Shown: one piece after another, positions 1,423 through 39,696 of the stretch
Position numbering within the stretch: the first letter of the stretch is position 1
How the letters are laid out: each line of letters starts with the position of its first letter
Assembly (NCBI GenBank): GCA_001825665.1
Contig: MHXZ01000072.1
Coordinates: 1-61,429, forward strand
DNA length: 61,429 nt
Direction: 5' to 3'
From: Planctomycetes bacterium GWF2_41_51
Lineage (GTDB): Bacteria; Planctomycetota; Phycisphaerae; Sedimentisphaerales; UBA12454
The notes under the pieces: generated by a model
Database searches by the model: none
What the model saw: only the letters and a program-made list of their open reading frames with translations
What the model was told of the DNA's origin: nothing
Position numbers and translations under genes: made by a program

Positions 1423-1443
1423 ATGAATCCCGCACCTTCTTAG
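1423..1443 (+). other. Possible leaderless leader-peptide ORF upstream of surE (MNPAPS)
   Basis: ATG at 1423 followed by five codons and TAG gives the peptide MNPAPS. The ATG lies 6 nt after the putative -10 box, the same geometry as the leaderless genes in this window. Most of the mini-ORF (from 1429) is the arm complementary to the surE Shine-Dalgarno region, so translating it could expose the surE start. This is inference from sequence; translation is unproven. Confidence 0.35.
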
Positions 1444-1525
1444 TTCATAATGAAGGCCGGGCTTATGATAGATAAAACTTTACACAAAAATCCACAGAAA
1501 AGGATTAAAAATAGAAGGTGTCGGG
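1429..1525 (+). promoter_or_regulatory. Alternative pairing in the surE leader that could mask its ribosome binding site
   Basis: The arm at 1429-1439 (CCCGCACCTTC) can pair with 1452-1461 (GAAGGCCGGG) as a local hairpin. It can also pair with 1514-1525 (GAAGGTGTCGGG), which contains the surE Shine-Dalgarno GAAGG and abuts the ATG at 1526. The two pairings are mutually exclusive, the layout expected of a translational switch. No known riboswitch class is recognised. Confidence 0.45.
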
Positions 1526-2269
1526 ATGAATATACTACTGACAAATGACGATGGCATAATGGCTCCGGGAATCGCGGCGGCTTATAAAGAATTGGTCAAG
1601 CTGGGCGATGTAACGGTTGTCGCGCCTTCGGGCAGAATGAGCGGAGCAGGACACAGCATTACGGTATTTGAGCCGCTGGTCTGCGAGAAAATCACAATCG
1701 AAGACCAGTTTACAGGATACAGCGTAAGCGGTTCACCGGCGGATTGCGTTAAACTTGCGATTATGGAACTATGCCCCCAAAAGCCCGACCTTGTGGTAAG
1801 CGGCATAAATCACGGGGCGAACGTCGGCATCAATGTTTATTATTCGGGAACAGTTGCGGCGGCTATGGAAGCGGCGTTTTACAGGATACCTGCAATCGCA
1901 CTTAGCGCAGCGGGTGAGGAACATATAGATTTTAAAAACGCAGCAATTTATTCTGTCGAGGTAATAGGAAAGTTGAAGCCGATCGATTGGCGAGGCGTAA
2001 TAAATATAAATATTCCGCGGCTTTCGAAAGGTAAACCGAAAGGAATAAAAATTGTTCCGCAATCGACGATGGGTTTCGATGAACATTATGTCAAAACGCA
2101 AAATGATGCGGGGCAAACGCTCTATCAGCTTGCAGGCGGAATACATCGCGACGTGGATTTGCCGAGCGATACGCTTGAACTGATTGACGGTTTCATTACT
2201 GTTACAGCACTTGGTTTCGATATGACAGATTACAAGGGAATGGAAAAACTCCATCAAATGAAATTTTAA
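1526..2269 (+). CDS. surE: 5'/3'-nucleotidase SurE
   Basis: SurE is a metal-dependent phosphatase acting on nucleoside 5'- and 3'-monophosphates and is linked to stress survival. The 247-residue protein is normal for the family. The N-terminal motif LLTNDDG supplies metal ligands D8 and D9, S39 lies in the PSGRMSGAGHS loop, and N95 in SGINHG completes the metal site. The start at 1526 has the Shine-Dalgarno GAAGG seven nt upstream, which may be masked by leader pairing. The ACT-domain gene follows after 10 bp and is probably cotranscribed. Confidence 0.95.
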   Translation: MNILLTNDDGIMAPGIAAAYKELVKLGDVTVVAPSGRMSGAGHSITVFEPLVCEKITIEDQFTGYSVSGSPADCVKLAIMELCPQKPDLVVSGINHGANVGINVYYSGTVAAAMEAAFYRIPAIALSAAGEEHIDFKNAAIYSVEVIGKLKPIDWRGVININIPRLSKGKPKGIKIVPQSTMGFDEHYVKTQNDAGQTLYQLAGGIHRDVDLPSDTLELIDGFITVTALGFDMTDYKGMEKLHQMKF

Positions 2270-37190: not shown

Positions 37191-37699
37191 TTAGCGATTT
37201 GAATTACGAATACAGGACAGGAATCGGCACCGATATTCACCGCCTCGTCGAAGGCAGAGAACTGAAGCTCGGCGGAGTCCTTGTGCCTTTCGATAAAGGA
37301 TTACTTGCGCATTCTGACGGCGACGTGGTACTTCATGCGATGATGGATGCCGTTATCGGCGCAGCCGGTCTCGGCGATATTGGGATGTTTTTTCCTGATA
37401 CCGACCCGCAATTCAAGAATATCGACAGCAAGGAACTTGTGCTGAAAGTGCGGGATTACATCTCTTCGAAGAATTGGGAAGTCGTGAATATAGATATTAT
37501 TATTAACGCTGAAGAGCCAAAACTTGGCAAGTTTAAAATGCAGATGAAAAGGTGCATTGCAGACCTGATGGGTATCGATTTTATTAATGTAAATGTTAAA
37601 GCCAAAACAAACGAAGGCCTCGGCGAAATCGGCTCAGGCCTTGCGATATCAGCGATTGCAAACGTTATGCTTAGAAGAAGGTTAAAAAGAACACTATGA
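37187..37699 (+). CDS. ispF: 2-C-methyl-D-erythritol 2,4-cyclodiphosphate synthase
   Basis: IspF forms the cyclic diphosphate in the MEP isoprenoid pathway; the dxr gene of the same pathway ends the window at 61298. The 170-residue protein has the metal-binding GTDIHRL and the LAHSDGDVVLHAMMDAVIGAAGLGDIGMFFPDTD block and the C-terminal AKTNEGLGEIGSGLAISAI. The GTG start overlaps the hisB stop, and cysS overlaps its end by 4 bp. Confidence 0.95.
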   Translation: MISDLNYEYRTGIGTDIHRLVEGRELKLGGVLVPFDKGLLAHSDGDVVLHAMMDAVIGAAGLGDIGMFFPDTDPQFKNIDSKELVLKVRDYISSKNWEVVNIDIIINAEEPKLGKFKMQMKRCIADLMGIDFINVNVKAKTNEGLGEIGSGLAISAIANVMLRRRLKRTL

Positions 37700-39123
37700 A
37701 GTTATACAATACGTTAACCCATAAAATTGAAGAATTTGTGCCGATGCAGCAGGGAAAAGTCGGGATGTATAGCTGCGGGCCGACGGTTTATTCGCATCCG
37801 CATATTGGAAATTTCAGAAGCTTTCTCGTCGCTGACCTGTTGAAACGCTTTTTTGAATTCAAGGGTTTTCAAGTAACTCACATAATGAATATTACTGACG
37901 TCGGTCATCTGGTTGATGACGCCGATGAAGGCGCAGACAAGCTCGAAGAGGCGGCCAAAAAACAAAAAAAAGACCCGATGGAAATTGCGCAGTTTTATAC
38001 AGATTCGTTTATGCAGGCAAGCAAACTGCTGAATATAAAACCTGCAAATAAATATCCCAAGGCAACAGAGCATATCAATGAGATGATTGAAATAATTAAA
38101 AAGCTCATCGATAAAGGCTATGCCTATGTTGTGGACAACAATGTTTATTACAATGTTGAAAAATTTGCTGATTACGGCAAACTTTCGGGCAATACCCTCG
38201 AAGAATTAAACGCAGGCGCAAGAATTGAAGTTAATCAGGAAAAAACAAATCCGCAGGATTTCGCCCTCTGGAAGCACGACCCCAAACATCTCCAGCAATG
38301 GGACAGCCCATGGGGCAAAGGTTTTCCCGGTTGGCATATCGAATGCTCGGCGATGAGTTCGAAATATCTCGGCGCGGAATTCGATATTCACACCGGCGGA
38401 GAAGATAATATATTTCCACATCACGAATGCGAAATCGCACAATCTGAAGCGGCAAGCGGAAAGAAATTCGTTCATTACTGGCTGCATACACGTTTCCTGA
38501 TGTTCGATGGCGAAAAGATGTCCAAATCAAAGGGCAATCTTTATACGATTCAGGAGCTTGTCGAAAAAGGATTCAGGAAAAATGCGATTCGGTATTCGCT
38601 TATCTCTTCGCATTATAGACAAAATTATAATTTTACTTTCGACGGTTTAAAAGCCGCTCAACAGGCAATTGATAAAATTCAGCAATGCGTTTTAAGACTT
38701 GAAGACTTGCGCAAAAATGCAAAAGCAGGCGAAATCAGGCCGGAATTAAAGGATTTATCGTCCAATTGCCTCAAAGATTTTGATGAATCACTTTCAGATG
38801 ATTTGAATATTTCGAAAGCACTCGGTGTTTGCTTTGATTTTATACGCGAAGCCAATAAAGCTGAAAATATGAATTCAACAGAGGCTGCCGCCCTGCTTGA
38901 TACAATAAATAAAATTGATTCCGTGCTCGGTGTTCTTGAAGCAGGTGAAAGCGAAGTGCCTGTGAACATTATAGAACTTGCGGAAAAACGAAAAGCGGCA
39001 AAACTTGCAAAAGACTGGAAAACGGCAGACGCAATGAGAGCCCAAATCACTTCGCTCGGCTGGACAGTCGAGGACACTCCCGGCGGAGGATACAGACTCA
39101 AACGCGCGGGAGAAGCGGGATGA
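37696..39123 (+). CDS. cysS: Cysteinyl-tRNA synthetase
   Basis: CysS charges tRNA-Cys. The 475-residue protein has the class I HIGH-like PTVYSHPHIGNFRS near residue 29, with zinc-binding C27. WDSPWGKGFPGWHIECSAMSSK and GGEDNIFPHHECE complete the zinc site, and EKMSKSKGN is the KMSKS motif. The ispF-cysS neighbourhood is common in bacteria. Its stop TGA overlaps an ATG (ATGA) opening a 14-codon reading frame that contains the left arm of the ruvC inverted repeat. Confidence 0.97.
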   Translation: MKLYNTLTHKIEEFVPMQQGKVGMYSCGPTVYSHPHIGNFRSFLVADLLKRFFEFKGFQVTHIMNITDVGHLVDDADEGADKLEEAAKKQKKDPMEIAQFYTDSFMQASKLLNIKPANKYPKATEHINEMIEIIKKLIDKGYAYVVDNNVYYNVEKFADYGKLSGNTLEELNAGARIEVNQEKTNPQDFALWKHDPKHLQQWDSPWGKGFPGWHIECSAMSSKYLGAEFDIHTGGEDNIFPHHECEIAQSEAASGKKFVHYWLHTRFLMFDGEKMSKSKGNLYTIQELVEKGFRKNAIRYSLISSHYRQNYNFTFDGLKAAQQAIDKIQQCVLRLEDLRKNAKAGEIRPELKDLSSNCLKDFDESLSDDLNISKALGVCFDFIREANKAENMNSTEAAALLDTINKIDSVLGVLEAGESEVPVNIIELAEKRKAAKLAKDWKTADAMRAQITSLGWTVEDTPGGGYRLKRAGEAG

Positions 39124-39164
39124 GTCCCGTTAGACCTCTTTTAGAAATATCGGTTTTTTATTAG
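39120..39164 (+). other. Possible leader ORF between cysS and ruvC
   Basis: ATG at 39120 overlaps the cysS stop in an ATGA sequence and runs 14 codons (MSPVRPLLEISVFY) to TAG. Its first codons form the arm complementary to the ruvC ribosome-binding region. Ribosomes finishing cysS could reinitiate here and open the structure. Translation is unproven. Confidence 0.35.
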
Positions 39165-39226
39165 TGAGATGATAATATGTTTTATATAGGTTTTGCAAAG
39201 TCGAAACTAAGTGAGGTCTAACGGGA
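39125..39226 (+). promoter_or_regulatory. 14-bp perfect inverted repeat enclosing the ruvC leader and covering its ribosome binding site
   Basis: The left arm at 39125-39138 (TCCCGTTAGACCTC) is the exact reverse complement of 39213-39226 (GAGGTCTAACGGGA). The loop is 74 nt. The right arm contains the Shine-Dalgarno GAGG and the first base of the ruvC ATG. The left arm can instead pair with CGGGA just upstream (CGGGA-TGAG-TCCCG hairpin). Confidence 0.6.
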
Positions 39227-39696
39227 TGAAAATTCTCGGTATTGACCCCGGACTGCATATTTGCGGATATGCAATTATCGACGCAGACAGGAATAATATG
39301 AAACTGCTCGAAGCGGGTATTTGCCGAACAAATACGAAGCTGCCGATTGAAAAAAGACTGGTGCAGATAACGCAGGATATAAATTCGATATTGGAAAAGT
39401 TTAACCCGAAATATATATCCGTGGAAGAGTTATATTCGCATTATGCGCATCCAAAAACCGCAATCTTGATGGGACACGCAAGAGGTGTTATACTTGCGGC
39501 GGCCTGTAAAAACGGCACGGATGTAAGGAGCTTTGCGGCGACAAGAATCAAAAAATCACTGACAGGAAACGGAAGAGCTTCAAAACTTCAGATGCAAAGA
39601 AGCATTACAACTTTGCTGGGGCTTGCGAAAGTGCCGGAGCCGGCCGATGTCGCTGATGCTATCGCGGCGGCGCTTTGCTGTGCAAACTCGATTTAA
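39226..39696 (+). CDS. ruvC: Crossover junction endodeoxyribonuclease RuvC
   Basis: RuvC cuts Holliday junctions together with RuvAB, whose genes follow. The protein begins MKILGIDPGLHICGYA with the first catalytic aspartate; the SVEELYSH region supplies the next glutamate, and ADVADAIAAALC the C-terminal acids. The frame is open from a GTG at 39211, but ATG 39226 fits the family and has GAGG nine nt upstream, giving 156 residues. That ribosome binding site lies inside a perfect inverted repeat. Confidence 0.94.
   Translation: MKILGIDPGLHICGYAIIDADRNNMKLLEAGICRTNTKLPIEKRLVQITQDINSILEKFNPKYISVEELYSHYAHPKTAILMGHARGVILAAACKNGTDVRSFAATRIKKSLTGNGRASKLQMQRSITTLLGLAKVPEPADVADAIAAALCCANSI

Follow-up and report, generated by a model that had tools for sequence, protein, structure and literature searches.

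Miniature mobile hairpin elements inserted at gene start codons in planctomycete bacteria

Bacterial genomes harbour several kinds of short, dispersed repeat. Miniature inverted-repeat transposable elements (MITEs), such as RUP, BOX and SPRITE of pneumococcus (PMC3049150), MITEAba12 (PMC6382973) and the Nezha and Correia elements, are short, lack a transposase gene, carry terminal inverted repeats and a target-site duplication, occur in many dispersed copies and are able to fold as RNA. REP/REPIN/BIME palindromes with RAYT (PMC3733652) are GTAG- or CGTC-tagged units of 20-40 bp, and have also been reported in Planctomycetes. Some mobile elements, such as the Correia elements (PMC3049150), supply an expression signal (i.e. 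a promoter) to the gene on which they land, while Rickettsia palindromic elements (PMC3733652) insert in frame inside ORFs, where they are tolerated because reading of the gene is preserved. Here we analysed an inverted repeat at the start of ruvC in Planctomycetes bacterium GWF2_41_51, located in a window of 61,429 nucleotides (GCA_001825665.1, contig MHXZ01000072.1, positions 1 to 61,429 of the forward strand), which turns out to be one copy of a family of about 100-base mobile DNA elements found in several related planctomycete bacteria.

The preliminary description of this locus had noted a perfect 14-bp inverted repeat enclosing 74 nt, of which the right arm covers the ribosome-binding site and start of ruvC and the left arm belongs to a 14-codon ORF coupled to the cysS stop, as well as a surE leader built on the same plan. 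This observation is confirmed. The arm TCCCGTTAGACCTC at 39125-39138 and its exact reverse complement at 39213-39226 are 74 nt apart, and the extended arms (39125-39144/39207-39226) are complementary at 18 of 20 positions, making this the top inverted repeat of the window. The start of ruvC at ATG 39226 is supported by orthologues. The surE leader has ATGAATCCCGCACCTTCT at 1423 and AGAAGGTGTCGGGATGAA ending next to the surE ATG at 1526, although its proximal arm has a one-base bulge, so that this second, diverged copy is not perfect. One detail needs correction: the equal 74-nt loop of the two leaders is incidental, since copies range from about 45 to 125 nt. The features are as follows.
37696-39123, plus strand: cysS (PF01406/PF09190), the upstream gene, whose stop overlaps the insertion site.
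39120-39164, plus strand: the 14-codon upstream ORF (MSPVRPLLEISVFY), which starts at the duplicated start codon; its ATG overlaps the cysS stop (TGA 39121-39123).
39121-39124, plus strand: left copy of the 4-bp target duplication (TGAG; TGAA in the empty site of a sister species), which overlaps the cysS stop and completes the upstream ATG at 39120.
39125-39226, plus strand: the inserted element, TCCCG...CGGGA, 102 bp, of the CCCGTTAGACCTC subfamily.
39125-39138, plus strand: distal terminal inverted repeat TCCCGTTAGACCTC, complementary to the ribosome-binding site of ruvC.
39213-39226, plus strand: proximal terminal inverted repeat GAGGTCTAACGGGA, which supplies the Shine-Dalgarno GAGG and the A of the ruvC ATG.
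39226-39696, plus strand: ruvC (PF02075, E 8e-41).
39227-39230, plus strand: right copy of the target duplication (TGAA), in the first codons of ruvC.
1428-1526, plus strand: the second copy in the window, of the CCCGCACCTTCT subfamily, at the surE start codon, with the target duplication TGAA at 1424-1427 and 1527-1530.
1526-2269, plus strand: surE (PF01975, E 2e-59).

The exact right arm occurs twice in the window and twice, with the same spacing, on another contig (C118) before a glycosyltransferase gene. A pattern for the plan, ATGARTCCCG-N75-105-CGGGATGA, has four matches in the 4.8-Mb genome and none for the reversed-pattern control. A covariance model adds two more, before lpxC-fabZ and before a gene for a 223-residue predicted membrane protein, which brings the total to six copies. 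Related Planctomycetota/Phycisphaerae assemblies (denoted G plus a number; all genomes are draft assemblies) together hold over 100 copies, the strict pattern giving 29 in G009, 20 in G006, 11 in G003 and 7 in G010, again with 0 for the controls, and none or few in others, while none of 85 further genomes of the order gave a convincing match. In a sample of 392 genomes of the phylum, four clear copies (not an exhaustive count) were found in G395, a GC-rich planctomycete of another class, at rpoN, purH, lnt and a peptidase gene, with arms that differ from copy to copy yet still pair at 11 to 14 of 14 positions. It had been set beforehand that the idea would fail if only two copies existed genome-wide or if the arms varied without compensation. 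Neither occurred: copies are many, and the arms vary mostly in matched fashion between subfamilies and in G395, albeit with some unmatched drift and with only weak compensatory change within the ruvC subfamily. In viral contigs, only 5 exact matches of a 17-mer were found, none with a partner arm, which is about the number expected by chance, and there was no match for the other subfamily. A pattern search for chained copies (CRGGATGANTCCNG) was uninformative.

Alignment of copies with their flanks shows an element TCCCG...CGGGA (sometimes CCCCG...CGGGG) with complementary ends of about 14 nt in several subfamilies, most copies matching at 11 or more of 14 end positions, flanked by a 4-bp direct repeat. 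This repeat is mostly TGAA, but where it is TGTA, TGCG, TGGA, TGAG, TAAA, CGAA or TTAG both sides agree (4/4 in nearly all copies), which is the mark of a target duplication. Orthologous empty sites support insertion. In ruvC of G005, a closely related species, gcgggATGAAAATTC stands against gcggg-ATGAG-[element]-TGAAAATTC, i.e. gcggg-ATGAA-AATTC where the present genome has gcggg-ATGAG-[element]-TGAA-AATTC; ten species are empty at this site, whereas G006 and G010 carry another subfamily at the same ATG. Several further genes have empty orthologues. In one filled/empty pair (extracted loci, denoted L plus a number, L044:237/L113) the empty species starts with GTGAAG and the filled one reads GTGAA-[element]-TGAAG, so that the last A of the element turned the start codon into ATG, which also fixes the duplication at 4 bp. 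Copies are also found nested in other copies and in tandem. Two almost identical copies in direct tandem in G005 (contig C173, 5430-5649; L221, L233) share the duplicated tetramer, which looks like a recent event, and other dispersed repeats (GTCATTTCGACCGGAGTGAGTCCCGATAAATCGGGAC..., GTCATTGCGAGGAGCAAAGCGACGAAGCAATCTC) lie inside or next to copies of the element at L141:1194-1463 and, near contig ends, in L151 and L153.

Two of the searches did not require an ATG, and of the 109 copies thus obtained that could be read, 91 stand exactly at the start codon of an ORF of at least 60 codons. The other 18 are largely from subfamilies without a Shine-Dalgarno-like end (CCCGTTAGAGA, CCCGTTAGAAA), or are nested, tandem or C/G-ended copies, although some of them are Shine-Dalgarno-bearing. 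A short (~65 nt) subfamily, CCCGTTAGAGAC/GTCTCTAACGGG, with the same ends and 4-bp duplications, occurs in G009 and G006 (e.g. L144:320-377, L144:423-486, L015:2052-2115), with dozens of copies in G009 that are mostly not at start codons. TGAA makes up 86% of the duplications at starts, against 17% of the ATG-starting genes in the window. The gene-side end pairs with the 16S tail at a mean of -7.7 kcal/mol, compared to -4.4 for the sequence that stood upstream before insertion and -4.4 for copies not at starts. Random landing alone cannot give this; targeting, selection or both can, and the data do not separate them fully.

In mRNA the two arms are predicted to pair and to bury the Shine-Dalgarno sequence (ruvC leader -38.7 kcal/mol, z -3.4), the predicted probability that the Shine-Dalgarno region is unpaired being 0.13-0.30 with the element and 0.37-0.55 without the distal arm. 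The frame of the upstream ORF lacks stops in 40 of 103 bodies, against 16 and 9 for the other two frames, and in 31 of 103 copies it spans the whole element and overlaps the gene start as ATGA. Such full-length ORFs are commonest where the upstream gene itself ended in an ATGA overlap (15 of 31, against 5 of 31 with no upstream gene; pooled Fisher p 0.03). Related copies are, however, not independent counts, and the ruvC copy itself has only a 14-codon ORF. Substitutions in the upstream ORF are spread evenly over codon positions (57/57/59), so the peptide sequence itself is not selected and a selected micropeptide can be rejected. These results fit a relay that would keep neighbouring genes translationally coupled; for ruvC, re-initiation at 39120 would melt the distal arm, which is where the ORF begins.

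When the same subfamily sits at orthologous genes of two species, the inner body is usually far better conserved than the fourfold-degenerate sites of the gene (for example 98% against 51%, 92% against 60% and 89% against 48%) and than the DNA upstream. Bodies are 82-98% identical in 14 of 19 same-subfamily pairs, while fourfold sites are 34-70% identical, but a few pairs are less conserved (64-74%), and the bodies of some are only moderately above shuffled similarity. The degree of conservation is unexplained before a small predicted lipoprotein gene (L016:1504-1614, L017:1506-1616, L187:1231-1341), where bodies are 96-98% identical across three species of two genera, while the proteins are 69-86% identical and the upstream DNA is near random similarity. 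Different genes in one genome carry different bodies, in loose sub-lineages, and a guide-like match between element body and target flanks showed no convincing excess (a small excess upstream only, 6.96 against 6.46 nt). The conservation of the bodies suggests domestication; either the body gains a function after insertion or the elements move between species into the same sites.

Following these results, we consider with fairly high confidence that the repeat is a non-autonomous, MITE-like transposable element of planctomycetes, with complementary ends (TCCCG...CGGGA plus about 10 subfamily-specific nt), which inserts with a 4-bp target duplication and favours NTGAA, the NTG being in most copies the start codon of a gene. 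Because the element ends in Shine-Dalgarno...CGGGA and the duplicated TGAA follows, insertion in this view rebuilds an ATG start behind an element-supplied ribosome-binding site (AAGGAGGT, GAAGGTG or AAGGAT), so that the gene can still be translated, while the old start codon becomes an upstream ORF, which overlaps the stop of the preceding gene in many operons. Mobility (from empty sites, duplications and nesting), location, Shine-Dalgarno content and the conservation of most orthologous bodies are directly established by the analysis. It is by inference only that an unseen transposase acts on the ends, that start codons are favoured because Shine-Dalgarno-bearing ends keep or raise expression there (with or without true targeting), and that the distal arm masks the Shine-Dalgarno sequence in mRNA, so that a ribosome arriving from the upstream gene and re-initiating on the upstream ORF could open it and couple translation. 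No autonomous copy was found among exact ends in G003, G006 and G009, where paired ends lie within about 45-300 nt. The interpretation offered in the preliminary description (a shared control element or a shared repeat family, with coincidence possible) is thus partly supported: the repeat family is right and goes further than was proposed, whereas a shared control element is neither shown nor excluded, regulation being plausible from the predicted masking of the ribosome-binding site, the many upstream ORFs kept open and the conservation of most orthologous bodies alone.

Of the alternatives, the one that survives best, as a tentative possibility, is that the element is the same but that insertion is random and only selection places copies at start codons, where Shine-Dalgarno-bearing elements survive or spread by keeping or raising translation. 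Subfamilies without a Shine-Dalgarno sequence do lie mostly elsewhere, and nested copies occur at TAAA and TGAA outside starts. On the other hand, Shine-Dalgarno-bearing copies are almost absent from other intergenic sites, where Shine-Dalgarno-free copies persist, and the TGAA bias is strong even among start codons. It is unlikely that the repeat is in origin a conserved cis-regulatory leader RNA (attenuator- or riboswitch-like), shared by a regulon, ancient at these genes and lost in some species. The masked Shine-Dalgarno sequence, the high conservation of most orthologous bodies and the recurrence at the same genes with different subfamilies in different species (ruvC, efp, coaX, pgsA and others) are in its favour. 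However, the duplications follow the target sequence, the empty sites are precise, copies are nested, in tandem and outside starts, the genes hit have no common function, and no Rfam family scored at or near its gathering threshold (a tRNA elsewhere in the window was the only hit there, and the best weak hit had 24 bits against 100 required). As the origin this reading is already largely refuted by the duplications and empty sites, but it survives as a secondary function of some copies. A REP/BIME-like palindrome spread by a RAYT (Y1) transposase is very unlikely: although these are short dispersed palindromes and Y1_Tnp genes exist in 12 of 13 genomes, copy number does not follow these genes (G003 has 11 strict copies and 0 genes, G002 0 copies and 8 genes), there is no GTAG foot, and a 4-bp target duplication is not expected of Y1 single-strand transposition. 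Chance inverted repeats are refuted by the copy counts with zero controls.

A further reading, which is possible but remains doubtful, is that these are a class of mobile elements, present in at least two classes of the phylum, whose insertion machinery targets translation start sites, and whose ends have evolved into a portable, self-masking ribosome-binding site with a relay ORF (ATGA-ORF-ATGA) that inserts into ATGA-coupled gene junctions and can be domesticated as a translational control leader. Mobile elements that bring promoters are known; one that lands on the start codon itself, rebuilds it and supplies the ribosome-binding site would be a different route by which translation of core genes is rewired (here ruvC, surE, lpxC, murG, ispH, efp, tsaD, rpoN, purH and others). 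The filled and empty orthologues form a natural series for measuring what such an insertion does. The element also explains MNPAPSKYS/MNPVRPL-type peptides at the starts of small ORFs in these genomes, and can mislead start-codon and small-ORF annotation.

No description of elements inserting at start codons with their own ribosome-binding site was found in the (open-access) literature searched, and the repeat is best described as a start-codon-inserting variety of MITE. It shares with the bacterial MITEs named above a short length, the lack of a transposase gene, terminal inverted repeats, a target-site duplication, many dispersed copies and a predicted ability to fold as RNA. Compared to them, it differs in its insertion register at the start codon, in a terminal repeat that doubles as ribosome-binding site and rebuilds the start codon, in ends that are diversified but matched, and in that no parental insertion sequence was seen; in the pneumococcal study the BOX-derived ORFs lacked good Shine-Dalgarno candidates (PMC3049150). 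With the REP/REPIN/BIME palindromes (PMC3733652) it shares a dispersed, palindromic nature, but it has a 4-bp duplication, TCCCG ends and no link with Y1 genes. Like promoter-carrying elements such as the Correia elements (PMC3049150), it supplies an expression signal to the gene on which it lands, although here the signal is for translation initiation, at single-base register. As with the Rickettsia palindromic elements (PMC3733652), insertion is tolerated because reading of the gene is preserved, but whereas those insert in frame within ORFs, the present elements sit at the start codon and leave the protein unchanged.
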